Positions 36,023-50,340 of a DNA stretch of 64,000 bases are shown here, piece after piece. The position numbers and the translations under genes are program-made. The notes beneath the pieces are model-generated. The model was not told where the DNA came from. It worked only from the letters and a program-made list of their open reading frames with translations, and ran no database searches. Every line of letters begins with the position of its first letter. Position 1 is the stretch's first letter. This stretch comes from Roseicyclus persicicus (GTDB taxonomy: Bacteria > Pseudomonadota > Alphaproteobacteria > Rhodobacterales > Rhodobacteraceae). The stretch lies in NCBI RefSeq assembly GCF_012395815.1, contig NZ_JAAZQQ010000005.1, forward strand, positions 186,001 through 250,000, given 5' to 3'.

Positions 36023-36523
36023 TCAGTAGTTGTATTCGGTCACGATCAGCTGCGCGGGGTTGTTCGACGAGCGCTGGTAGCTGCCGGTCCAGACGTCGTA
36101 CTGGCCCGCCATCGGGTTGAAGAACACGATGGCCGAGTTGAAGCCGCGGTAATCGTCGTTGTAGTGCCACGACCCGTCCGGCGCGTTGATCAGCAGGATG
36201 GTGTCGACGTTCGACCGCGCCTCGACCGCGAAGGTCAGCCGGCCGGTCGGCGAGGAGCCGTTGTAGAACAGCCGGAAATCGGGCCGCGTGACCACCCAGC
36301 CGTACCACTGGCCGTTGGTGCAGCGCGCCAGGTCGACGCGGCCGCCCGCGGTCAGGTTGCGGACGTAGGGATCGGGCAGGAACCCGCCGTTCAGCGTTGC
36401 CGAGCCAAAGACGGTCGGGTTGTTCCAGGACGGGCAGGCCTGCGCCGACGCGGCGCCGGTCTGTCCGGCCACGAAGAAGAGCGCGGCGACGAATACCGCC
36501 AGGACGTGTCTCAGAAGTGCCAT
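36023..36523 (-). CDS. Secreted protein, possible jelly-roll domain
   Basis: 166 residues. A Sec signal peptide (about 1-27, ending GAASAQA) is followed by a beta-rich domain. VDTILLINAPDGSWHYNDD and QYDVWTGSYQ recall pre-peptidase/PPC-like jelly-roll domains found at the ends of secreted proteases. There is no catalytic domain. The role is unknown; it may bind polysaccharide or act as a stabilising module. The start at 36523 is supported by a good promoter upstream. Confidence 0.65.
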   Translation of the reverse strand: MALLRHVLAVFVAALFFVAGQTGAASAQACPSWNNPTVFGSATLNGGFLPDPYVRNLTAGGRVDLARCTNGQWYGWVVTRPDFRLFYNGSSPTGRLTFAVEARSNVDTILLINAPDGSWHYNDDYRGFNSAIVFFNPMAGQYDVWTGSYQRSSNNPAQLIVTEYNY

Positions 36524-36783: not shown

Positions 36784-37713
36784 ATGACGACGGATACCAC
36801 CGACCGGCCCCGCCTCGGCGCTTCGGGGCTTTCGCAGGCCGACTGGCTCGACCGGCTCGCCCGGATCGGGCGCGACCACGGCTTCTTCGAGCGGCTGGGC
36901 CCCGAGCACCTGGCGCTCTTCGTGCAGGAGGGCAACACGCTGGTGGTCAGCTTCGACCGCGCCGCGCGGGTCCACGCCGAGGAACCCGACGGGCTGCCGC
37001 CGGGCTTCGAGGCGGTGCGCAAGCGGGAATGGTCGCTGCTGTCGATCCTGGCGCTCGGCGACCCGTGGTTCCGCTCGGCCGACCTGGTGGCCTTCTTCGA
37101 CCGGCTCGCCGCCGACGGCTTCTTCGACAGCTTCGCCGAGGTGGTCTTTCTCGGCTTCGGCCCGGCCTCGGGCCACGCCGCCTGCGCCTATTCCTCGGCC
37201 GCCCCCGGCGCCTCGGTCCTCGCGGCGGCGCCGGCCGCCACGCTCGACCCCGAGCTCGCGGGCTTCGACCGCCGCTTCCTGCGCGACCGCCGCCGCGACT
37301 TCAGCCGCTACGGCGACGCCGCCCGGCTGATCGCCCGGGCCAGCCAGGCGGTGATCCTCTACGACCCGACCGAGCCCGTCACGGCCGCCCATGCCGCGCA
37401 GTTCCGCGCCGACGCGGTGCAGCTGGTCCCGCTGCGCTTCACCGGGCGCGCGCCGCACCGCCTGATCGCGTCGGGCAGGCTGCTCACGCCGCTCCTGCGG
37501 GCACTGGCGCGCAAACGGCTGACCCGCGCCAGGGCCGCCGCCATGATCCGCCCGGTGCGCCGCGCCGACCCCGACTACCTGTGGCACCTCGCCGGGCTCG
37601 CGCAGGCGCACGGCCAGTTCGACCGCGCCCGGCGGGTGGCCGAATACGCCGCCGACATCACCGGCGAGGCCCGCTTCACCGAGCTGGCCGAGCGGCTCGA
37701 CCCCGGCGCGGGC

Positions 37714-37719
<6 letters not shown>
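36784..37719 (+). CDS. Conserved Rhodobacteraceae protein of unknown function
   Basis: 311 residues, not recognised with confidence. Similar proteins in this group have been labelled phosphoadenosine phosphosulfate reductase, but none of that family's Cys or P-loop motifs are present. [20 protein letters not shown], then [35 protein letters not shown] and [20 protein letters not shown] suggest an alpha/beta fold with a tetratricopeptide-like C-terminus. Starts at 36706 and 36784 are both possible; 36784 gives a more natural N-terminus. It is convergent with ureG, overlapping by six bases. Confidence 0.65.
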
Positions 37720-38325
<606 letters not shown>

Positions 38326-38433: not shown

Positions 38434-39072
38434 TCAGGTGCGGAAGATCCGCACCTCGAGCCCCTCGTGCTCCATCGCCGCGAGGTCCGCCCCGAACACC
38501 GCCCCGCCAATCCCGTCGAGCCCCGCCGCGCAGGCGTCCCCGGCCACGTCCTCGATCACCGGGTGCAGCGCGGCCAGCACCCGCTGCCCCTCGCCCTGCC
38601 CAAGCGGCACGAAGCGCACCGCCGCCGACACCAGCACGCCGGCAAAGGCCTGCAGGTACAGCGCCGCGACCAGCCGGTCGGGCAGGTCCAGCCCCCGCGC
38701 CGCAAGCCCCAGCGCCACCGGGTAGGGCCGTGGCACCCCGTCGCCCACCCCCAGCCCCGCCAGCGTCACGGCCAGCGCCCGGCCCTGCGCCTCGGTCTCC
38801 TCCAGCCGCTCGCGCGCGCCGGCCAGCGCCCGGGCGAGGTCGGCCAGCCGGTCGGGCGCCTCCTCCCCCCGCCGCGCGGCCAGCATCAGGATCGCGTCGG
38901 TCCGCCCCGCCCCGGCCGCCAGCACCCCGGCGACCCAGTCGCGCAGCGCCCCGGCGTCCCGCACCCGGCCGGCCGCGATCTCGGCTTCCAGCCCGTGCGA
39001 ATAGGCGTAGGACGACACCGGGAACCCCGGCGACAGCCATTGCGACAGCTTCAGGAGGTCCGCCTCGCCCAT
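38434..39072 (-). CDS. ureF: Urease accessory protein UreF
   Basis: 212 residues, all-helical. LLKLSQWLSPGFPVSSYAYSH near the start and ALYLQAFAGVLVSAAVRFVPLGQ are UreF signatures. It acts as the platform that gates UreG's GTPase activity in the UreD-UreF-UreG complex. Its start is three bases after the ureE stop, so the genes are likely coupled. Confidence 0.95.
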   Translation of the reverse strand: MGEADLLKLSQWLSPGFPVSSYAYSHGLEAEIAAGRVRDAGALRDWVAGVLAAGAGRTDAILMLAARRGEEAPDRLADLARALAGARERLEETEAQGRALAVTLAGLGVGDGVPRPYPVALGLAARGLDLPDRLVAALYLQAFAGVLVSAAVRFVPLGQGEGQRVLAALHPVIEDVAGDACAAGLDGIGGAVFGADLAAMEHEGLEVRIFRT

Positions 39073-39075
39073 CGC

Positions 39076-39588
39076 TCAGTGGGCGTGGTCGTGGTCGTGG
39101 TCATGACCCTGCGCGTGGTCATGGTCGTGGCCGGGCCCGTGGTCATGGCCGTGGGTCCGGCCATGGCCGTAGGCGCCGCCCTCGGGGGTGAAGGGGGCCG
39201 TCACCGGCGCGACCGTGGCGCCCAGATGCGCCAGCATGTCGGCCAGCACGTGGTCGGCCCGGATCAGCAGGTGGTCGGCGGCGATCTGGCAGGGCGTGTG
39301 GCGGTTGCCGATGTGCCAGGCCAGCCGCGTCAGGTCGCCGGTCACCCGCAGGAGCGGCTCGGGCGCGGCGGCGATCTCGATCAGCGCGCCCTCGGCGGTC
39401 TCCAGCGCGTCGCCGGCCGCCAGCGACACGGTCTCGGGCAGGTCCACCAGCACCGCCGCCCCCGAGGCCAGCGTCAGCCGCTTGCGCCGCAGGAACCGCC
39501 CCTCGTAGTCCAGCACCAGCCGGTCGGCCGCCGGCCCCTGCCAGTGGCCCGCCCGGCGCACGCGCCCCGCCGTTCCGATGTCGCCCAT
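39076..39588 (-). CDS. ureE: Urease nickel chaperone UreE
   Basis: About 170 residues. The N-terminal domain (GRFLRRKRLTLASGAAVLVDL) and the metal-binding domain (RLAWHIGNRHTPCQIAADHL) are normal. The C-terminus is a His-rich tail with many HDHDH and HGH units, typical of nickel-storing UreE proteins. It delivers nickel to UreG. The start at 39588 (MGDIGTAGRV) is preferred over a longer in-frame one. Confidence 0.95.
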   Translation of the reverse strand: MGDIGTAGRVRRAGHWQGPAADRLVLDYEGRFLRRKRLTLASGAAVLVDLPETVSLAAGDALETAEGALIEIAAAPEPLLRVTGDLTRLAWHIGNRHTPCQIAADHLLIRADHVLADMLAHLGATVAPVTAPFTPEGGAYGHGRTHGHDHGPGHDHDHAQGHDHDHDHAH

Positions 39589-39718
39589 GATCCCCTCGTC
39601 CCCGGCCCCGGTCGCCGCCAAGGATAGGGGCGGCACCGGCGGGCGCAATCCCGATCTGCCGGCCCGGGCGCGGGCCGGCCCGGCCGGCCCCCGGCGCCGC
39701 GCGCATGGGCGGTGCTGC

Positions 39719-40393
39719 CTATTTGGCGGGCGGTCCCGGCGGCGCCCCGGGGGCCGGCGCCGGCCCCGCCCCGCCGGCCCGCGGCGCGCTGGCCGAGATC
39801 GACAGGGGCAGCGTCGGCACCACCGCCTGCCCGGGGTCCGCGAAGCCGAGGTAGAGCGTCACCCCCAGGTCGGACAGGTGCATCAGGCGCTCGTGCTGGA
39901 TCGTCTCGCCGGTGGGGCGGCTCCAGGTGATGTCGACCGGCAGGCCGGTATAGAGGCAGGGCCCGATGCTGACCGGCTGCGGGGCGCCGACCGTCAGCGC
40001 AAGATGCGAGTCGCCCGTGCTGCCGTCCTCGTAGACCGTGGTCTCGACCCCGTCGAACCGCGCCCCGGGGGCCGCCACGGGCACCGGGTCGGGAAAACCG
40101 CTGTGGCGCAGCACCTCGTGGGAGCCCGCATCGACCCGGCCGGCCTGCATCGTCCATCGTTCGGACAGCAGGCCGATGGGCAGCAGCAGGTAGCTGTTGA
40201 TCGCCGGCTGCCCCGCCACGTATTCGAGGTCGAGCACCCGCCCGTCCGACAGGACCCGCGACAGGATGGTGCGGTCGCCGTAGTCGAACCACACCCCGTC
40301 CCGCGCCAGGCCCTGCGGGCAGCTGCCCTGGGCGAGCGCAAGACCGGGCAGGCCCGCGGCGAGGACGGCGAACAGAAGGGGGCGGATCGACAT
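39719..40393 (-). CDS. Tandem secreted paralogue A of the urease locus
   Basis: 224 residues, family not recognised. A signal peptide (about 1-21, LPGLALAQ) is followed by SCPQGLARDGVWFDY. Shared with copies B and C are RVL.DGRV, PIGLLSE, ARFDGVETTVYEDG, QPVSIGPCLYTGLPVDITW and LGVTLYLGFADPG. The C-terminus is Pro/Ala-rich and likely disordered. Two Cys, near residues 25 and 145, are conserved in all three copies and may form a disulfide. Exported, probably periplasmic. It is the last of the three before ureE. Function unknown; nickel or urea handling is only a guess from position. Confidence 0.75.
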   Translation of the reverse strand: MSIRPLLFAVLAAGLPGLALAQGSCPQGLARDGVWFDYGDRTILSRVLSDGRVLDLEYVAGQPAINSYLLLPIGLLSERWTMQAGRVDAGSHEVLRHSGFPDPVPVAAPGARFDGVETTVYEDGSTGDSHLALTVGAPQPVSIGPCLYTGLPVDITWSRPTGETIQHERLMHLSDLGVTLYLGFADPGQAVVPTLPLSISASAPRAGGAGPAPAPGAPPGPPAK

Positions 40394-40459
40394 GGCCGGG
40401 GCTCCGGGTGGGGCGGGGGCGGGGTGGCGCCGGCCCCGCGGACGGGGCCGGCCGGGCGA

Positions 40460-41140
40460 TCACTTGGTCTCGGCACCGCCGCCGGCGGGCGGCAGCGGCG
40501 GCGGCACGGTCCCGCCCGCGGCCCGCGGCGGGGTCAGCGAGATCGAGCTGGGCATGTCCGGCACCGGCGGCTGGCCGGAATCCGAGAAGCCGAGGTAGAT
40601 CGTCACGCCCAACTCGGCCAGGTGCAGCATGCTGTCCATCATCATCGGGCCGCCGGCCGTGTCGATCCGGGTCACGTTCACCGGAAGGCCGGTGTAGGGG
40701 CAGCCGCCGATGCTGACGGGCTGGGCCGTGCCGACGACCACGTTCACGGTATAGCGCACCTCGCTGCCGTCGCTGAAGCGCGAGGTCTCGAGCCCGTCGA
40801 ACCGCGCCCCGGCCACCGGCGCCGGCACCTGGGCCGGGGTGCCGGTGTAGGTCACGGTCTCGCCCTCGCCGGCGGGCACGCGCCCGTCGACCAGCCCCCA
40901 GCTTTCGACCACGAGGCCGATGGGCAGGGTGATGTAGCTGTAGATCGTGCCGCCCTCGTAGGCGAACTCGGTCTCGGCGACGCGGCCGTCCTGCAGCACT
41001 CGGGTCAGCACGCTGCGGTCCGAGAACTCCAGCCAGACGCCGTCATGCGCGATGCCCTGCGGGCAGGCGCCCTGCGCCGCCGCGAGGAGGGGCCAGAGGC
41101 CCGCGACAAGCCCCCCTGCCCAGGTGATACCCCGACGCAT
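40460..41140 (-). CDS. Tandem secreted paralogue B of the urease locus
   Basis: 226 residues. A signal peptide (about 1-22, PLLAAAQ) is followed by ACPQGIAHDGVWLEFSDRSV, RVLQDGRVAETEFAYEGG, LPIGLVVESWGLVDGRVPAG, ARFDGLETSRFSDGSEV, QPVSIGGCPYTGLPVNVT, LGVTIYLGFSDSGQPPVPD and a Pro-rich tail. Clearly homologous to copy A over its full length, though diverged enough to be an old duplication. I picked the start at 41140 (MRRGITWAGGLVAGL); a longer frame would put Arg-rich residues before the signal. Function unknown. Confidence 0.75.
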   Translation of the reverse strand: MRRGITWAGGLVAGLWPLLAAAQGACPQGIAHDGVWLEFSDRSVLTRVLQDGRVAETEFAYEGGTIYSYITLPIGLVVESWGLVDGRVPAGEGETVTYTGTPAQVPAPVAGARFDGLETSRFSDGSEVRYTVNVVVGTAQPVSIGGCPYTGLPVNVTRIDTAGGPMMMDSMLHLAELGVTIYLGFSDSGQPPVPDMPSSISLTPPRAAGGTVPPPLPPAGGGAETK

Positions 41141-41233
41141 CCTTCCCCCCCTTGTGCTGTTGGGTCTGTTGCGCGCGAGCATGACCGAAGCCCCGCGACT
41201 CGGCAACGGGCTTGGCGGGGCGCGCGCGGCGGC

Positions 41234-41830
41234 TCAGGGCAGCTCGGGCGGCCGGACCGGGTGCCGCCATCCCGGCCAGGGCGGCCGGGCCGCGATCGCC
41301 AGGGGCAGCATGTCCTGCGGCGGGTCGTCGAGCCCGGAAAAGCCCAGCCAGACCGGCAGGCCCAGCTCGCGCAGGACCAGCAGGCTGTCGCGGTCCCCGC
41401 GCACGCCGCCCTGCGGGGTGCGCGTGACCGTGACCGGCAGCGCGGCATAGGCGCAGCCGCCAACGAGGACGTCCCGCGCCGCGCCCACCCGCAGCGCGAT
41501 GGCGCCGCGCCGCACCTCGCGCCCGTCGAGGTCGGTGAGGATCTCGACCGCGTCGAACACCACCCCGGGCGCGGGCGTGGGGATGTCGCCGGAATAGGCG
41601 AAACGCTGCTCCGAGCCGGGCGCCATGTCACCGTCATCCATCGCCCAGCTGTCGCGGAGAAGCCCCACCGGGTGCCGACGGACGACGCTGGCGGGCGTGC
41701 CGTCGCGCGTGAAGGCCCAGTCCGCGACCAGCCCGCCCGGCCGAGCGCGCATGAGGCTGACCCGGTGCGGAAAGGTCAGCCAGATGCCGTCGGCCGCATC
41801 CCCCGCGCCGGGGCAACCGCCCGCGGCCAC
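41234..41830 (-). CDS. Tandem paralogue C, without a signal peptide
   Basis: 198 residues if the GTG at 41830 is used, three bases after the ureC stop. It has the same core as A and B: GCPGAGDAADGIWLTFPHRV, RHPVGLLRDSWAMDDGDMAPG, VVFDAVEILTDLDGREV, VGGCAYAALPVTVTR and LGLPVWLGFSGLDDPP. It lacks any hydrophobic leader, so either it is cytosolic, or the exported leader has been lost or lies in another frame. It is the most diverged copy. The coupling to ureC suggests it is still translated. Confidence 0.65.
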   Translation of the reverse strand: MAAGGCPGAGDAADGIWLTFPHRVSLMRARPGGLVADWAFTRDGTPASVVRRHPVGLLRDSWAMDDGDMAPGSEQRFAYSGDIPTPAPGVVFDAVEILTDLDGREVRRGAIALRVGAARDVLVGGCAYAALPVTVTRTPQGGVRGDRDSLLVLRELGLPVWLGFSGLDDPPQDMLPLAIAARPPWPGWRHPVRPPELP

Positions 41831-41833
41831 GGG

Positions 41834-43543
<1,710 letters not shown>

Positions 43544-43795: not shown

Positions 43796-44635
43796 ATGAA
43801 AACGCTTGTTCCGGCCGCGCTTGCGGCCTGCTGTGTCGTATCGGTGGCCCAGGCCGAGCCGAGCGTGGCGCGCGGCGAATACCTCGTGCGCGGGATCGCG
43901 GGCTGCGGCAACTGCCACACGCCGCTGGGGCCCGAGGGCTTCGTGATGGACCAGGAGCTGGCCGGGCGGCTGGTGGAGGACGGCCCGCCCTTCCGCGCGG
44001 TGGCGCCCAACCTGACCCCCGCCGGCCGCATCGCCGGCTGGTCCGACGCCGAGCTGGCCCGCGCGATCCGCGAGGGGATCCGGCCCGACGGCAGCCTGAT
44101 CGGCCCGCCGATGCCCTTCGCCATGTACCGCGGGCTTGGCGACGAGGACCTGATGTCGATGGTGATGTTCCTGCGCACCCTGCCCGCGGTCGAGAACGAC
44201 CCCGGCCCGTCGGAATACCGCATCCCCCTGCCCCCGGCCTACGGACCGCCGGTCGAGACCGTGACCGCCCCGCCGCAGGGCGTGACGGTGGCCTACGGCG
44301 CCTACCTGGCCGGGCCGGTGGCCCATTGCATGGAGTGCCACACGCCGATGGGGCCACAGGGGCCGCTGCTCGACACCGACCTCGGGCGCGGCGGCTTCGC
44401 GTTCCACGGGCCCTGGGGCACCTCGGTCGCGGCGAACCTGACCAGCCACGCCGACGGGCTGGCGGGCTACAGCGACGCCGAGATCGGGCTGATGATCACG
44501 CAAGGCGTGCGGCCGGACGGCGCGCCCATGCTGCCGCCGATGCCCTACGGCTACCTCGCGCAGATGACCGCCGAGGATCTTGCCGCGATCATCCTCTACC
44601 TGCGCAGCCTGCCCGCCCTGCCCGACGCGGGCTGA
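43796..44635 (+). CDS. Dihaem cytochrome c
   Basis: 279 residues. A signal peptide (about 1-20, ending AQAEP) is followed by two c-type cytochrome domains with haem motifs CGNCH (about residue 38) and CMECH (about 180). PDGSLIGPPMPF and PDGAPMLPPMPYGYL are the Met-ligand regions. Such two-domain periplasmic cytochromes usually accept electrons from alcohol, aldehyde or sugar dehydrogenases. The gene faces away from the urease genes and sits inside their locus, with no dehydrogenase nearby. A very long upstream open frame in this frame is a shadow. Confidence 0.88.
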   Translation: MKTLVPAALAACCVVSVAQAEPSVARGEYLVRGIAGCGNCHTPLGPEGFVMDQELAGRLVEDGPPFRAVAPNLTPAGRIAGWSDAELARAIREGIRPDGSLIGPPMPFAMYRGLGDEDLMSMVMFLRTLPAVENDPGPSEYRIPLPPAYGPPVETVTAPPQGVTVAYGAYLAGPVAHCMECHTPMGPQGPLLDTDLGRGGFAFHGPWGTSVAANLTSHADGLAGYSDAEIGLMITQGVRPDGAPMLPPMPYGYLAQMTAEDLAAIILYLRSLPALPDAG

Positions 44636-44853: not shown

Positions 44854-45249
44854 TCACGCCTTGAACACCTCGTCCACCTCGACCTGCAGCCCGGTCACCA
44901 GCCCGTTGGTCTGCATCGCCATGCCGATCACCGCCAGCAATTCCGCATGCTGGGCCGGGGTCATCCCCTTGCCCCGCGCCGCCGCGGTGTGGCTGTGGAT
45001 GCAGTAGGAACAGCCGTTGGCGGTGGAGACCGCGACGTAGATCATCTCCTTGACCAGCGGGTCGAGCGCGCCGGGGGCCATCACCACGCGCAGCCGGTCC
45101 CAGAGGGCGCGCATCGCGGCGGGGTCATGCGCCATCGCGCGCCAGAAGTTGTTGACGTAATCCGTGCCCCTGAGGGCACGGATCTCGGCGAAGACCTCGG
45201 CCGCCTCGGGCGACAGCTCGTCATCGCGCAGAAGGGCCACGGTCCCCAT
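44854..45249 (-). CDS. Carboxymuconolactone decarboxylase/AhpD-like protein
   Basis: 131 residues. The core has EVFAEIRALRGTDYVNNFWRA, LVKEMIYVAVSTANGCSYCIHSHTAAARG and AELLAVIGMAMQTNGL. The CSYC..H motif is the peroxidase/redox-type active site of the AhpD branch of this superfamily. The protein is cytosolic. Its start overlaps the stop of the upstream cyclase gene (TGATG), so the pair is coupled. The role is inferred only broadly as a small redox or decarboxylase-like enzyme. Confidence 0.85.
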   Translation of the reverse strand: MGTVALLRDDELSPEAAEVFAEIRALRGTDYVNNFWRAMAHDPAAMRALWDRLRVVMAPGALDPLVKEMIYVAVSTANGCSYCIHSHTAAARGKGMTPAQHAELLAVIGMAMQTNGLVTGLQVEVDEVFKA

Positions 45250-46073
45250 CAGGTCAACGCCATCACGCGGGCGTGGCCACCGGTGCCGCCGCGGATCTTG
45301 GGGGCGCCCACCATCAACGTGGCCCCCGCCGCCGGCACGTTGTCGAGGCCGGCGAGGCACTCGATCCCGTAGCGGCCCGCGGGCAGCCAGGCGTAATGCG
45401 TGGCGAAATCCGCCGACGGCCCGTGGTCGAGCGACAGCGTGTCGACCGCCATGCAGACCGCGCCCGTCTCCTCCAGCAGCATCTGCGTCGCCTCGATGTG
45501 GAAGCCGGGGAAATGCAGCCCGCCGGGCCGCGCGGCATCGGCGCCCCGGAACTCGGGCGTGCCGACCTTGGCCGCCCAGCCCGAGTTCATCGCCACGCAG
45601 GCGCCGTCGGGGATCGGGCCGTTGGCCGCGATCCAGGCCGACAGGTCGTCGGGCGTGACCTGGGTGTCGCGGTCCTCGGCCGCCCGCGCGCGGATGTCGA
45701 TGACGCAGAGCGGGCAGGCGAGGTTGGCGATCGGGATCTCGGCCACCGACTGGCCGTCGGCCGAGAAATGCAGCGGCGCGTCGATGTGGGTGCCGGTGTG
45801 CTCGTTCACCGTGAGGACATAGAGGTTGTAGCCGTCCGAGGCGAAATCGAACTGCTTGTCGTAGCTGATGCCCGGGACGCCGCCGAAGGTCGGGAACTCG
45901 TCAGACAGCTCGTGGGTCATGTCCACGACCCGCATGGCGGGCTGGGCCCGCACCGGGCGGGGGGCCGCACCGGCCGCCGCGGCGCCGAGCGCGGCCGCGG
46001 CCGATCCCTTGAAGAAGGTGCGGCGCGACAGCATCCGCTCCTTCACGCTTTCCATCACGCAGATGTCACACAT
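45249..46073 (-). CDS. Tat-exported cyclase-family protein
   Basis: 274 residues. A twin-arginine signal, MLSRRTFFKGSAAAALG, lies about 14 residues in, after an unusual leader MCDICVMESVKER with a CxxC pair. The mature protein has the cyclase/kynurenine formamidase metal motif HTGTHIDAPLHF, VTVNEHTG and HGPSADFATHYAWL. Family members open cyclic amides or lactones; the substrate is unknown. It is coupled to the AhpD-like gene downstream. Both interrupt the urease genes on the same strand, beginning about 70 bases after ureB. Confidence 0.88.
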   Translation of the reverse strand: MCDICVMESVKERMLSRRTFFKGSAAAALGAAAAGAAPRPVRAQPAMRVVDMTHELSDEFPTFGGVPGISYDKQFDFASDGYNLYVLTVNEHTGTHIDAPLHFSADGQSVAEIPIANLACPLCVIDIRARAAEDRDTQVTPDDLSAWIAANGPIPDGACVAMNSGWAAKVGTPEFRGADAARPGGLHFPGFHIEATQMLLEETGAVCMAVDTLSLDHGPSADFATHYAWLPAGRYGIECLAGLDNVPAAGATLMVGAPKIRGGTGGHARVMALT

Positions 46074-46145: not shown

Positions 46146-46451
46146 TCACAGCTTGCCCATGACCGCCTTGTTGAAGCCCCAGACCGCGCGGTCCCCGCCG
46201 TAGGGGACAAGCTGCACCTCGCGCGTCTGGCCCGGCTCGAAGCGCACCGCGGTGCCCGCAGCGATGTCGAGCCGCATCCCCCGCGCCAGCGCCCGGTCGA
46301 AGTCGAGCGCGGCGTTGGTTTCCGCGAAATGGTAGTGGCTGCCCACCTGCACCGGCCGGTCGCCGGTGTTGGATACCGTCAGCCGGATCGCGTCGCGCCC
46401 GGCGTTCAGCTCGATGTCGCCCGCCGCCGTGAGAATCTCGCCCGGGATCAT
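46146..46451 (-). CDS. ureB: Urease subunit beta UreB
   Basis: 101 residues: [41 protein letters not shown], and [24 protein letters not shown]. The structural subunit of urease. Its start overlaps the stop of the small membrane gene upstream by four bases. ureC should follow directly in most bacteria but here is 2.6 kb further on. Confidence 0.96.
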
Positions 46452-46717
46452 GCGTCGCCCCCCCTGCCCTGGATCGCCGCGACGATCCGTTTTCCGAACA
46501 CGCCCAGCAGCGCCCCCGCGAGGAGCGCGAAGGCATTGCCGCCGCCCGACAGGGCCGCCGCCACGAGCAGCAGCAGCACCAGCGTCACGAGGTCGAATTC
46601 CGAGTCCTCGACCTCGATCCTGGCCTGCGCCATCTGCTCCGCCGCGCGCTTCACCTGCGGCTCGACGTATGGCACGGCGAAGCCCGCCGCCGCGCCGAGG
46701 AGAAAGGTCCAGATCAT
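46448..46717 (-). CDS. Small membrane protein between ureA and ureB
   Basis: 89 residues. A hydrophobic N-terminus (about 1-18), a charged amphipathic stretch ([20 protein letters not shown]), then one or two membrane helices ([31 protein letters not shown]). Not recognised. It is fully embedded in the ureA-ureB operon, with a four-base overlap with ureB and 15 bases after ureA. Small hypothetical genes occupy this slot in some other alphaproteobacterial urease operons, so it may assist urea or nickel handling at the membrane. Confidence 0.65.
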
Positions 46718-46732: not shown

Positions 46733-47035
46733 TCAGCGGATCGGGTGATGGACGGTCACGAGCTTGGTGCCGTCCGGGAACGTCGCCTCGACCTGCACGT
46801 CGTGGATCATGTCGGCGATCCCCTCCATGCACTGGTCGCGGGTGATGACATGGGCGCCCGCCTCCATCAGGTCGGCGACCGAACGGCCGTCGCGCGCGCC
46901 CTCGAGCACGAAATCGGTGATCAGCGCGATCGCCTCGGGGTGGTTCAGCTTGACGCCGCGCGCCAGCCGCCCGCGCGCCACCATGGCGGCGAGGCTGATC
47001 ATCAGCTTGTCCTTTTCCCTCGGGCTCAGGTTCAT
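46733..47035 (-). CDS. ureA: Urease subunit gamma UreA
   Basis: 100 residues: [42 protein letters not shown] and [18 protein letters not shown]. The smallest structural urease subunit. The start at 47035 matches the family; an upstream in-frame ATG adds 16 residues without similarity. It is 16 bases after ureD. Confidence 0.97.
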
Positions 47036-47051: not shown

Positions 47052-47870
47052 TCAGATCTGCCAGACCCGCGGCAACGGGCCATCGGTGAGTGCCTCGACC
47101 GCGCGGGCGACCGCGCGGCGCAGGGGCCAGGCCTCGGGCGCGGCGAAGCGCGCCACCACGCGGCCGTCCCACGCGGACGCCGCGGCGCGCACCGGGCCGT
47201 CCGACGGCAGCGCCGCGCGCAGGCGGTCCAGCCGGTCCTCGGCGTCGGGGGCGAACAGGCTCAGCGTGGCCACCGCCACCGCGCCGCCCAGCCCCGCCGC
47301 GCCGGGGCGCAACAGGTCGGCGGGCCCCAGCCGGATCGCCTCGACCATGGCGGGGCGGCCGTCGCGGATCACCTCGCGCCGGTCGGTCAGCTGCAGGTCG
47401 GCCAGCCGCTCGCCCATCGCCGCCCGGCCCAGCACCAGCGTCTCCAGCAGCACCAGCTCCGCGTCGCCGGCCATCTCGACCGTCACCCGCCGGTCCACCG
47501 CCGCGCCGTCGAACAGGATCATCTCCTGCGGCAGCCAGTGCAGCCGCCCGCCGGCCCCGACGCTCAGCCGCGCCTCGACCCGCGCTACGCCGCCCGCGCT
47601 GCGGTAGGCGCGTTCCGCTGTCTGGGTGGTGCCCACCGCCGCGGCGCCCGCCGCCACGTCCAGCGTGTAGGCCAGCCGGTCGCCCCCGGTGATCCCGCCC
47701 GCGGTGTTCAGGAACACGACCTCGGGCGCGCGGCCATGCATCCGCGGCAGCATCGCCTTGGCCGAGCCCTTCTGCCACAGCCGTCCGAGCCGCCCGCCGG
47801 GGCCGATCGTGGCCCCCGCGCGGCCGTCCACGCGCTGCATCTGCGCCGGGGGTGCCGTCTCGTCGAACAT
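47052..47870 (-). CDS. ureD: Urease accessory protein UreD
   Basis: 272 residues. [71 protein letters not shown] and [16 protein letters not shown] are UreD signatures. It binds apo-urease and recruits UreF-UreG for nickel insertion. It is the first gene of the urease locus. The cognate nickel or urea uptake genes are not in the window. Confidence 0.95.
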
Positions 47871-47949: not shown

Positions 47950-48510
47950 TCAAGAATCGGGCAGACCGAGCTCGGCGTGGAACTCGGACAGCGGGCTTGC
48001 CGGCCGCGCGCCCCGGGGCAGGTTCGACAGCGCGATGGCGGCGCACACGAGGCTGACCACCACGCCGGTGAAGCCCATGCCGACCCCCTCGCCCCAGTCG
48101 CCCTCGACCGACAGGACCACGCCGACGCCGATCAGGAACAGCCCCGCCAGCACGCCCAGCGCGCCCACCGCGAACATGCCCCAGCGCGCCCCGCCCTCGT
48201 GGCCGATGGTGATGGTCATCCCCGGCCGCGCCGCCGCCAGCGCCCCGGTCAGCGCGCGCAGCATGTCGACGTAGCGCGCCACCTCGGGCCCGTCGCCGTT
48301 GACCGACAGGACCACGTCCGCGCCCGCGACCCGCAGGCGCAGGGTCATCATCGTGACCTTCATCCGCGGCGCCTGGTCGAGCGCGAAGCTGATCGCCTCG
48401 ACCGCGTCCCAGCACGTCACCGTGCCCCCGTCCACGGCAAAGCCTTCGGGCGTGACGGTCACCCGGCGCTCGCCCCTCAGCGCGGCGGGTCTCCATGCGA
48501 ACTGGTCCAT
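47950..48510 (-). CDS. Membrane-anchored hypothetical protein
   Basis: 186 residues, not recognised. The N-terminal 110 residues look globular and cytoplasmic ([24 protein letters not shown], with strands alternating hydrophobic and polar residues), followed by two membrane helices (about 118-138 and 150-172) and a short C-terminal tail. The start is best at 48510 ([14 protein letters not shown]). It lies between ureD and pyrC, divergent from pyrC by 65 bases, with no functional hint from its context. Confidence 0.6.
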
Positions 48511-48575
48511 CCGGCGCCTCCCTTCTCCGATTTGCCCTTTGCAGCGCGGCCCCGAACCTTGTACCGGAATGCCCC

Positions 48576-49619
48576 ATGACCCAAACCCTGACAATCCGCC
48601 GCCCCGACGACTGGCACCTGCACCTGCGCGACGGGGCCATGCTGGCCGGCGTCCTGCCCGAGACCGCGCGCCATTTCGGCCGCGCCATCGTGATGCCGAA
48701 CCTCGTGCCGCCGGTGGTGACGGGCGACGACGCCCGCGCCTACCGCGACCGGATCCTCGCGGCGCTGCCCGCGGGCATGGATTTCACGCCGCTGATGACC
48801 CTGTATCTGACCGAGGCGACCGACCCCGCCGACGTCGCCCGCGCGGCGGCCGAGGGCGTGGTGACGGCGGTCAAGCTCTACCCCGCGGGCGCCACCACCA
48901 ATTCCCAGTCCGGCGTCCGCGACCTGACCCGCGTGACCGCGGTGCTGGAGAAGATGGCCGAGATCGGCCTGCCGCTCTGCATCCACGGCGAGGTGACGAC
49001 GCCCGAGGTCGACATCTTCGACCGCGAGCAGGTGTTCCTCGAGACCGTGCTCGATCCCCTCCGCCGCCGCATCCCCGGGCTGCGCGTGACGCTGGAACAC
49101 ATCACGACCTCGCAGGGGATCGACTACGTCGCGCAGGCCGACGGCGACATCGCCGGCACGATCACGACGCACCACCTGATGATCAACCGCAACCACATCC
49201 TCGTGGGCGGCATCCGGCCCCACTACTACTGCCTGCCCGTCGCCAAGCGATCGACCCACCAGCAGGCGCTGCGCAAGGCGGCCGTCTCGGGCAACCCGCG
49301 CTTCTTCCTCGGCACCGACAGCGCGCCGCACACCGACCCCACCAAGGAATCGGCCTGCGGCTGTGCCGGCGTGTTTTCCGCGACCAACACGCTCTCCTGC
49401 CTCGCCCATGTGTTCGAGGAGGAAGGCGCGCTCGACAAGCTCGAGGGCTTCGCCTCGCTCTTCGGCCCCGCCCGCTACGGCCTGCCCCCGGCCGAGACGA
49501 CGATCACGCTGGAAAAACGCCCAGATCCGGTCGCCTACCCGGCCAAGATCGTCACCGGCGCGGGCCCCGTCACCGTCTTCGACCCGGGCCACCCGCTCCA
49601 CTGGCACGTGATCGCCTGA
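48576..49619 (+). CDS. pyrC: Dihydroorotase (class II)
   Basis: 347 residues. Catalyses ring closure of carbamoyl aspartate in pyrimidine synthesis. [12 protein letters not shown] carries two zinc His; [17 protein letters not shown] carries the carbamylated Lys; [13 protein letters not shown]-type (LCIHGEV), LEHITT and GTDSAPH supply the other ligands. It is the E. coli-type monofunctional enzyme. It is followed by a repeat and pyrE, probably in one transcript. Confidence 0.96.
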
Positions 49620-49659: not shown

Positions 49660-50340
49660 ATGATCCCCACCGCCTACCCCGACCGCGCCACCGTGGCCCG
49701 CCTGTCCGCCCGGATGCTCCTCGACATCGGGGCGGTGCATTTCAACACCGAGACGCCCTTCACCCATGCAAGCGGCAAGCAGGCCCCCACCTATCTCGAC
49801 TGCCGCAAGATCATCTCCTACCCCCGCGTGCGCGCGACGCTGATGGATTTCCTCTGCTGCACCGTGATGGAGGCCGCGGGGCTGGAGGCCTTCGACAACA
49901 TCGCCGGCGGCGAGACCGCGGGCATCCCCTTCGCCGCCTTCGTGGCCGAGCGCATGGGCCTGCCCATGTCCTACGTGCGCAAGAAACCCAAGGGCTATGG
50001 CCGCACCGCCCAGATCGAGGGCGAGATGCGCGAGGGCGACCGCGTGCTGCTGGTCGAGGACCTGACCACCGACGGCGGCTCCAAGCTGAAATTCGTCGAC
50101 GCGATCCGCGCGGCCGGCGCCAGCTGCGCCCACACGGCGGTGGTGTTCTACTACGGCGCCATCCCCGGCACCGAGGAACGGCTGGCCGCCCATGGCCTGA
50201 CGCTCCACTACCTCACCACCTGGGCCGACGTGATCGCCGAGGCGCGCCGCGGCGGCGATGTCGACGCCGCCACGCTGGCCGAGGTGGAGCGATTCCTCGC
50301 CGACCCCGAGGGCTGGCGCGCGGCCCGCGGCCTCGCCTGA
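49660..50340 (+). CDS. pyrE: Orotate phosphoribosyltransferase
   Basis: 226 residues. Forms OMP from orotate and PRPP. The PRPP-binding loop is [41 protein letters not shown] and [20 protein letters not shown] are further family landmarks. It follows pyrC by 40 bases, so two successive steps of pyrimidine synthesis (the orotate-forming enzyme apart) are encoded together. Confidence 0.96.

Follow-up and report, generated by a model that had tools for sequence, protein, structure and literature searches.

A lineage-specific family of small, probably exported proteins in the ureC-ureE interval of Roseobacteraceae

The three adjacent genes that separate ureC from ureE in a 64,000-nucleotide stretch of Roseicyclus persicicus DNA (hereafter the window, meaning the whole stretch that was analysed) are tandem members of a lineage-specific protein family whose products are small and probably exported. 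The family is nearly restricted to one bacterial family, and its link to the ureC-ureE interval is real and strong. Considering also the copies that persist at a shared chromosomal site from which urease genes are gone, we find it reasonably probable that the family is a passenger of the native urease locus, encoding an exported envelope protein with a role of its own.

Results

The urease locus and its passengers

The urease genes of the window all lie on the minus strand, in the order ureD-ureA-membrane gene-ureB-cyclase-AhpD-like gene-ureC-P3-P2-P1-ureE-ureF-ureG, with a single ORF on the other strand between the AhpD-like gene and ureC. The operon comprises ureD (47052-47870; PF01774), ureA (46733-47035; Urease_gamma), ureB (46146-46451; PF00699 at 46152-46445), ureC (41834-43543; urease alpha subunit, 569 aa), ureE (39076-39648; named from earlier annotation and synteny, with an uncertain start codon) and the genes at 38434-39072 and 37714-38325, which we take from their position and familiar likeness to be ureF and ureG. 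Interleaved on the same strand are three passengers: a gene for an 89-aa hydrophobic protein between ureA and ureB (46448-46717; no Pfam match), a cyclase (45249-46073; PF04199) and an AhpD-like carboxymuconolactone decarboxylase (44854-45249; PF02627). The plus-strand ORF (43796-44635, 279 aa) shows CxxCH motifs by eye and is cytochrome c-like. Downstream of ureG the operon is flanked by a plus-strand gene for a conserved 311-aa protein, X311 (36784-37719; no Pfam match), and on its other side by two plus-strand genes, a PF01979 protein (48495-49619) that is presumably dihydroorotase (pyrC) and a PF00156 protein (49660-50340) that is presumably pyrE. Beyond X311 lies another conserved gene (36023-36523), found near urease-bearing and lone family loci alike; its 166-aa product has a signal-peptide-like start and matches no Pfam model at E 0.01. 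UreC itself varies in one loop: 17 extra residues separate DLT from YGEE in the same-genus loci L025-L028 and are absent from the window and from L024, and a simple pattern finds this loop longer, and of varied length, in 31 of 90 UreC sequences.

The interval between ureC and ureE holds P1 (39719-40393, 224 aa), P2 (40460-41140, 226 aa) and P3 (41234-41830, 198 aa). Their ORFs confirm the original prediction of three adjacent homologous genes on the operon strand at this position, with identities of 50% (P1-P2), 40% (P2-P3) and 34% (P1-P3) and a gene-like third-position GC of 0.925-0.947. Their likeness is not due to chance, because each matches a relative absent from the seed, such as L024 (E 7.9e-77 to P2, 1.3e-57 to P1 and 2.5e-28 to P3, in a small local database). 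Both cysteines said to be shared are present in all three proteins, and the two signal peptides foreseen fall to P1 and P2, whose signal-peptide-like starts place a hydrophobic stretch before the first Cys, P3 having none. The ordered motif set attributed to all three is complete in P1 and P2 only; P3 has PVGL in place of PIGL, FDAVEI in place of FDG.ET and VLVGGCAYAALPV in place of PVSIG.C.YTGLPV. No further copy was found in the 3,709,790 bases searched of the same genome.

A family without a name in current libraries

A seed of the three proteins matched 17 of 147 genomes, its own included, and among twelve genomes of the same genus five carry one copy each and seven none. With a 21-row profile, matches rose to at least 80 of 394 genomes (393 genera) of the own family, a term that in these genome counts denotes group f1; NCBI places the genus Roseicyclus in Roseobacteraceae, order Rhodobacterales. 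A class-wide draw matched 4 of 337 genomes: two from the own family (G000, G363) and one from each of two other families, where the copies do not lie at urease. Family counts in the 394 genomes are lower bounds, since up to 8 candidates were scored in each, and the profiles were seeded with urease-linked copies.

The expectation that the proteins belong to no named family held, in that P1, P2 and P3 matched no family of Pfam, NCBIfam or PHROGs at E 1. At E 0.01, a set of 70 members gave one match to TcfC (E 0.0007) and one to RHS_repeat (E 0.007) in Pfam, and none in NCBIfam, while the family profile A2 had a single match among PDB sequences, a minor tail protein at E 0.11; no known family emerged from these profile searches. 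A literature search, with most subscription journals outside its coverage, returned no description of the family. The ure cluster of R. capsulatus includes orf136, which the same search did not find.

Each of the 111 aligned rows has Cys in both of two columns, and exactly two cysteines occur in 106 of the 112 copies. The two invariant residues suggest one disulphide, which the protein probably forms; it is probably also exported, judging by the hydrophobic stretch that precedes the first Cys in 110 of 112 copies, the exceptions being P3 and the fragment L096. In L096 the gene lies in two frame pieces, through a frameshift or an assembly error, and it was scored as two of the 109 copies counted below. 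By eye, AQG-S/A precedes the first Cys in P1 and P2, and AE, AD or AQ does so in many others; the preceding residues look more like a signal peptidase I site, and no lipobox is apparent. Columns conserved at 60% or above hold Cys, Gly, Pro, Tyr, Leu, Ala, Thr and one Asp, and no His; Asp occupies one column at 65-84% and one at 39-58%, and neither His nor Glu is found among columns at 55% or above. The set of conserved columns is almost identical in urease-linked copies (62 rows) and other copies (50 rows), with no residue standing out as specific to the former. A metal or urea site at the cysteines and the PIGL/YLGF segments finds no support, the alignment showing no conserved ligand set, and the idea of a site at the two cysteines is weakened further by the missing His and by the invariance of both residues in copies away from urease.

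The AlphaFold2 model of P2, built from six sequences (mean pLDDT 82.9, pTM 0.76), is all beta after residue 34, with 13 strands following the signal peptide, and that of P3 has 13 strands in the same order (pLDDT 88.2, from an alignment that includes the other copies). A Foldseek search of the PDB with the P2 model gave no match at E 0.001, nor did a search of a viral structure library. Its five best PDB matches (E 0.03-0.36, TM 0.35-0.48, rmsd 7.7-11.6), which are a putative lipoprotein of Parabacteroides and YmcC of E. coli, with two chains each, and a YmcC-like protein of Bacteroides, give a hint of a YmcC-like sheet.

The link to urease

Outside the window, 59 of 109 copies (99 loci) have ureC or ureE in their stretch. 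All 59 lie on the operon strand, and in the 42 loci with long matches to both genes, ureC and ureE enclose 49 of 49 copies. Another 32 loci, absent from the profile and including some genomes congeneric with earlier ones, place 14 of 34 copies at urease. By genome, 49 of at least 80 family-positive genomes have a urease-linked copy. The homologues are thus not scattered at random with respect to urease, as the strong link to the ureC-ureE interval shows, but neither are they confined to it, since 50 of the 109 copies lie elsewhere.

Copies in the slot co-vary with UreC (Spearman 0.45 over 57 loci, a value reached in 0 of 2000 permutations; 0.46 without the genus clade). Among own-family genomes, 310 of 394 gave a UreC match, and the family is mildly enriched in these (70 of 310 UreC-positive against 10 of 84 UreC-negative genomes, the two lists being matched by eye; Fisher p 0.03). 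The ten family-positive genomes without a UreC match are G022, G052, G154, G228, G229, G247, G275, G349, G367 and G422; in G052 ureE nonetheless adjoins the family copy at a contig end. On the UreC tree, slot presence is weakly clustered (22 changes against a shuffled mean of 26.9, 15 of 500 shuffles being as low), and on the family tree the label of urease-linked or other switches no fewer than 6 and at best 20 times. In L083 and L101 the UreC matches come in two or three pieces, reflecting frameshifts or assembly errors.

This distribution might reflect a dedicated periplasmic accessory factor of urease, which would bind urea, nickel or ammonium and help supply the cytoplasmic enzyme. The operon position and strand maintained across many genera, the co-variation and mild co-occurrence with UreC and the export signals would all suit such a factor, whereas the alignment offers neither a conserved set of metal ligands nor a residue special to urease-linked copies, no copy was detected in 240 of 310 UreC-positive genomes (a count that rests on lower bounds for the family), and 10 of at least 80 family-positive genomes have no UreC match. 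We consider a dedicated accessory role unlikely, and the copies found apart from urease bear on it further.

Copies without urease and the pyrC-X311 site

Sorting 131 loci by urease genes and by the flanks seen in the window gives 46 with urease and no site flank, 18 with urease and pyrC or X311, 23 urease-free with pyrC and/or X311, and 44 with neither urease nor flank, so that 67 of the 131 are urease-free; a missing flank may in any locus reflect too short a stretch. The flanks are arranged as in the window, with pyrC upstream, X311 downstream and both on the opposite strand, in 40 of 41 site loci, X311 being displaced in L030. Among the 23 lone site loci, 20 retain both flanks in this arrangement, and L035 and L110 retain one; the distance to pyrC varies, reaching about 3.6 kb in L173. 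Lone copies at first seemed to share no location, an impression overturned by the pyrC and X311 flanks common to many of them. The supposition that this site is mostly filled was likewise given up, for among the 30 best X311 loci, drawn from 148 positive genomes with a profile built from family-bearing loci, 20 have pyrC close to X311 and show neither the family nor ureG between the two. The wider neighbours of lone copies, called with a home-made gene finder (102 of 136 proteins, from 34 of the 47 lone loci of the first set), belong to mixed families with no functional theme, the most frequent being acyl-CoA dehydrogenase (6 of 102).

Seven lone site loci keep another passenger of the operon, in operon order, with no ure gene: the membrane gene precedes the family gene in L040, L077, L082 and L190 (33-46% identity), the cyclase precedes it in L187 and L121, and in L183 the order is cyclase-AhpD-family. 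Away from the site, a cyclase and/or an AhpD-like gene lies upstream of the family gene on the same strand in four lone loci (L067, L069, L081, L096). A search of 22 lone loci with X311 revealed no ure gene at E 1e-3, and seven gaps in L183, L187 and L121 contained no convincing ure remnant; their only clear match spans 217-229 columns of the ureB-cyclase stretch. Protein-level matches to UreD and UreC in these gaps (E 0.01-0.19) were set aside as looking like low complexity.

Most genomes with a lone site copy have a urease elsewhere: UreC was found in 20 of 22 such genomes tested, the 23rd (G022) giving no UreC match, and in 8 of the 20 (G030, G044, G062, G201, G417, G369, G464 and G519) a further family copy sits at that urease locus. 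An accessory factor could on these figures act in trans. It counts against a dedicated accessory role that, when 12 urease loci of lone-site genomes were retrieved, none contained the family; two of the 12 do contain a cyclase or an AhpD-like gene. A role tied to urea, nickel or ammonia, as first suggested, is thus weakened by the 50 of 109 copies off urease, by the genomes in which the family has no UreC partner, and by its persistence at the site without ure genes. The family survives where urease genes are gone and may well, therefore, do a job of its own. A more tentative extension, which we think rather doubtful, is that the membrane protein, the cyclase, the AhpD-like protein and the exported beta-protein form a second module with an envelope function of its own, which remains in order after the ure genes are displaced.

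Proposed displacement of urease genes in genus g435

One genus, g435, presents several of these states side by side. At the pyrC-X311 site, G469 and G522 carry the full operon with the family, and G462 carries the operon but neither the family nor the membrane gene. No family gene lies between ureC and ureE at this site locus of G462 (L207), and the genome has a family copy elsewhere (L170). G446, G489 and G496 hold at the site the cyclase and the family gene only, joined in G489 by the AhpD-like gene, and their UreC is encoded elsewhere, in loci without the family (L204-L206). In a FastTree phylogeny of 90 UreC sequences, G469, G522 and G462 group with the window in a 14-row clade (97), and a 53-row group (91, below the star) takes in G489, G496 and G446. 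This pattern is in keeping with a distant urease having taken the place of the native one, with loss of the native ure genes from around the passengers. The pyrC-X311 site is often empty (20 of 30), and loss of the ure genes is for that reason deduced here rather than rooted; that ure genes were inserted singly among passengers arranged in operon order seems far less likely than that they were deleted.

Copy number and constraint

More than one copy in the slot is found in the window genome, in G298 (three copies) and in G062, G397, G149, G316 and the congeneric G369, G464 and G519. In a quick family tree, the two copies pair together in G316 and in G149 and do not in G298, G062 and G397, so that not all of these need be local duplications. 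The window copies and those of their genus form an 8-row clade (98), in which P2 is the window copy closest to the single copies of the genus (54.6-62.4% identity) and has a branch of 0.18, against 0.72 for P1 and 1.03 for P3. Rough NG86 estimates, made at high dS, put dN/dS at 0.25 (L024/L025) and 0.29 (L026/L027) between near relatives, at 0.45 and 0.53 when P2 is paired with L024 and L025, and at 0.69-0.97 in five pairs with P1 or P3, P3 giving about 0.7 against L026 and L027. The extra copies hence seem to be under weaker or altered constraint. That amplification signals a selected periplasmic role, as the original prediction had it, gains from the multi-copy slots of other genera, and loses in that the dN/dS values fit relaxed constraint equally well.

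The fast evolution of the family (its sequence data give a median identity of 22%, against 84% for UreC) might suggest a neutral hitchhiker, the ureC-ureE gap being a tolerant slot in which small genes of unrelated kinds gather, and the family being unselected. Family-free urease loci lend this some substance: 16 of 20 (L136-L155) show both genes, separated by 21-831 bases, and in several the gap holds other small ORFs, two of them with sub-threshold DUF1127 matches. An unselected gene would, however, hardly be expected to keep two cysteines in every aligned row, a hydrophobic start in all but two copies and the low dN/dS of both near-relative pairs, or to be present where the ure genes are gone, and we regard neutrality of the family as a whole as quite improbable.

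For P3 taken alone, decay of the copy rather than use as a cytoplasmic variant has about an even chance. Its GTG start lies one codon past the TGA stop of ureC, in the ureC frame, and directly at the mature domain; this start, the missing signal peptide, the long branch and the dN/dS against L026 and L027 would suit a decaying gene. Against decay, the 198-codon ORF is intact, its GC3 is 0.925, the invariant residues are kept and the model is confidently folded, with the other copies forming part of its alignment.

Discussion

The preferred reading, in which the family is carried along in the native urease locus while fulfilling an envelope role of its own, can be set out as a sequence of events and properties. 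The protein would be exported, carry one disulphide and act in the cell envelope as a scaffold or binding protein; it would be expressed alongside urease, which would not need it. In the lineage of the window the gene would have multiplied, P2 keeping the old role and P1 having diverged; P3 would have lost its signal peptide and be either decaying or used in the cytoplasm. If, beyond this, the interleaved genes do form a module, they would outlast ure genes displaced by a foreign urease operon elsewhere in the genome. The case carries a warning that finding a gene within one operon across dozens of genera does not make it a servant of that operon, and it draws attention to a predicted exported family without a name in the libraries searched here. 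Genus g435, with species that hold the full operon and species that hold the interleaved genes only, amounts to a natural experiment on the independent genes of a mixed operon.

Several known systems invite comparison. Passages in articles on rumen bacteria (PMC10105427) and Sphingobacterium (PMC9283089) mention uncharacterised ORFs in or beside the ureC-ureE interval. What ureJ and these published ORFs share with the family is their position. UreJ, in the passage that describes it, is a transmembrane transporter, whereas the family combines an N-terminal hydrophobic segment with a predicted beta domain. The family does not look like a UreJ/HupE nickel permease on two counts, the lack of a Pfam match and a beta model in place of several transmembrane helices. 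The YmcC-like proteins (2in5 from E. coli, 3fzx and 4fvs), annotated as putative lipoproteins or exported proteins of 188-214 residues, supply the five best structural matches of the P2 model, and differ from the family in that the structural match is weak (TM below 0.5), there is no sequence match and the family has no visible lipobox.

Another parallel lies in genome dynamics. It is a known kind of event for a distant homologous operon elsewhere in the genome to displace a resident one, and the lone-copy species of g435 agree with it in carrying a UreC from another part of the tree at another place. They depart from it in one respect, for here the interleaved non-urease genes stay at the old site, in the old order.
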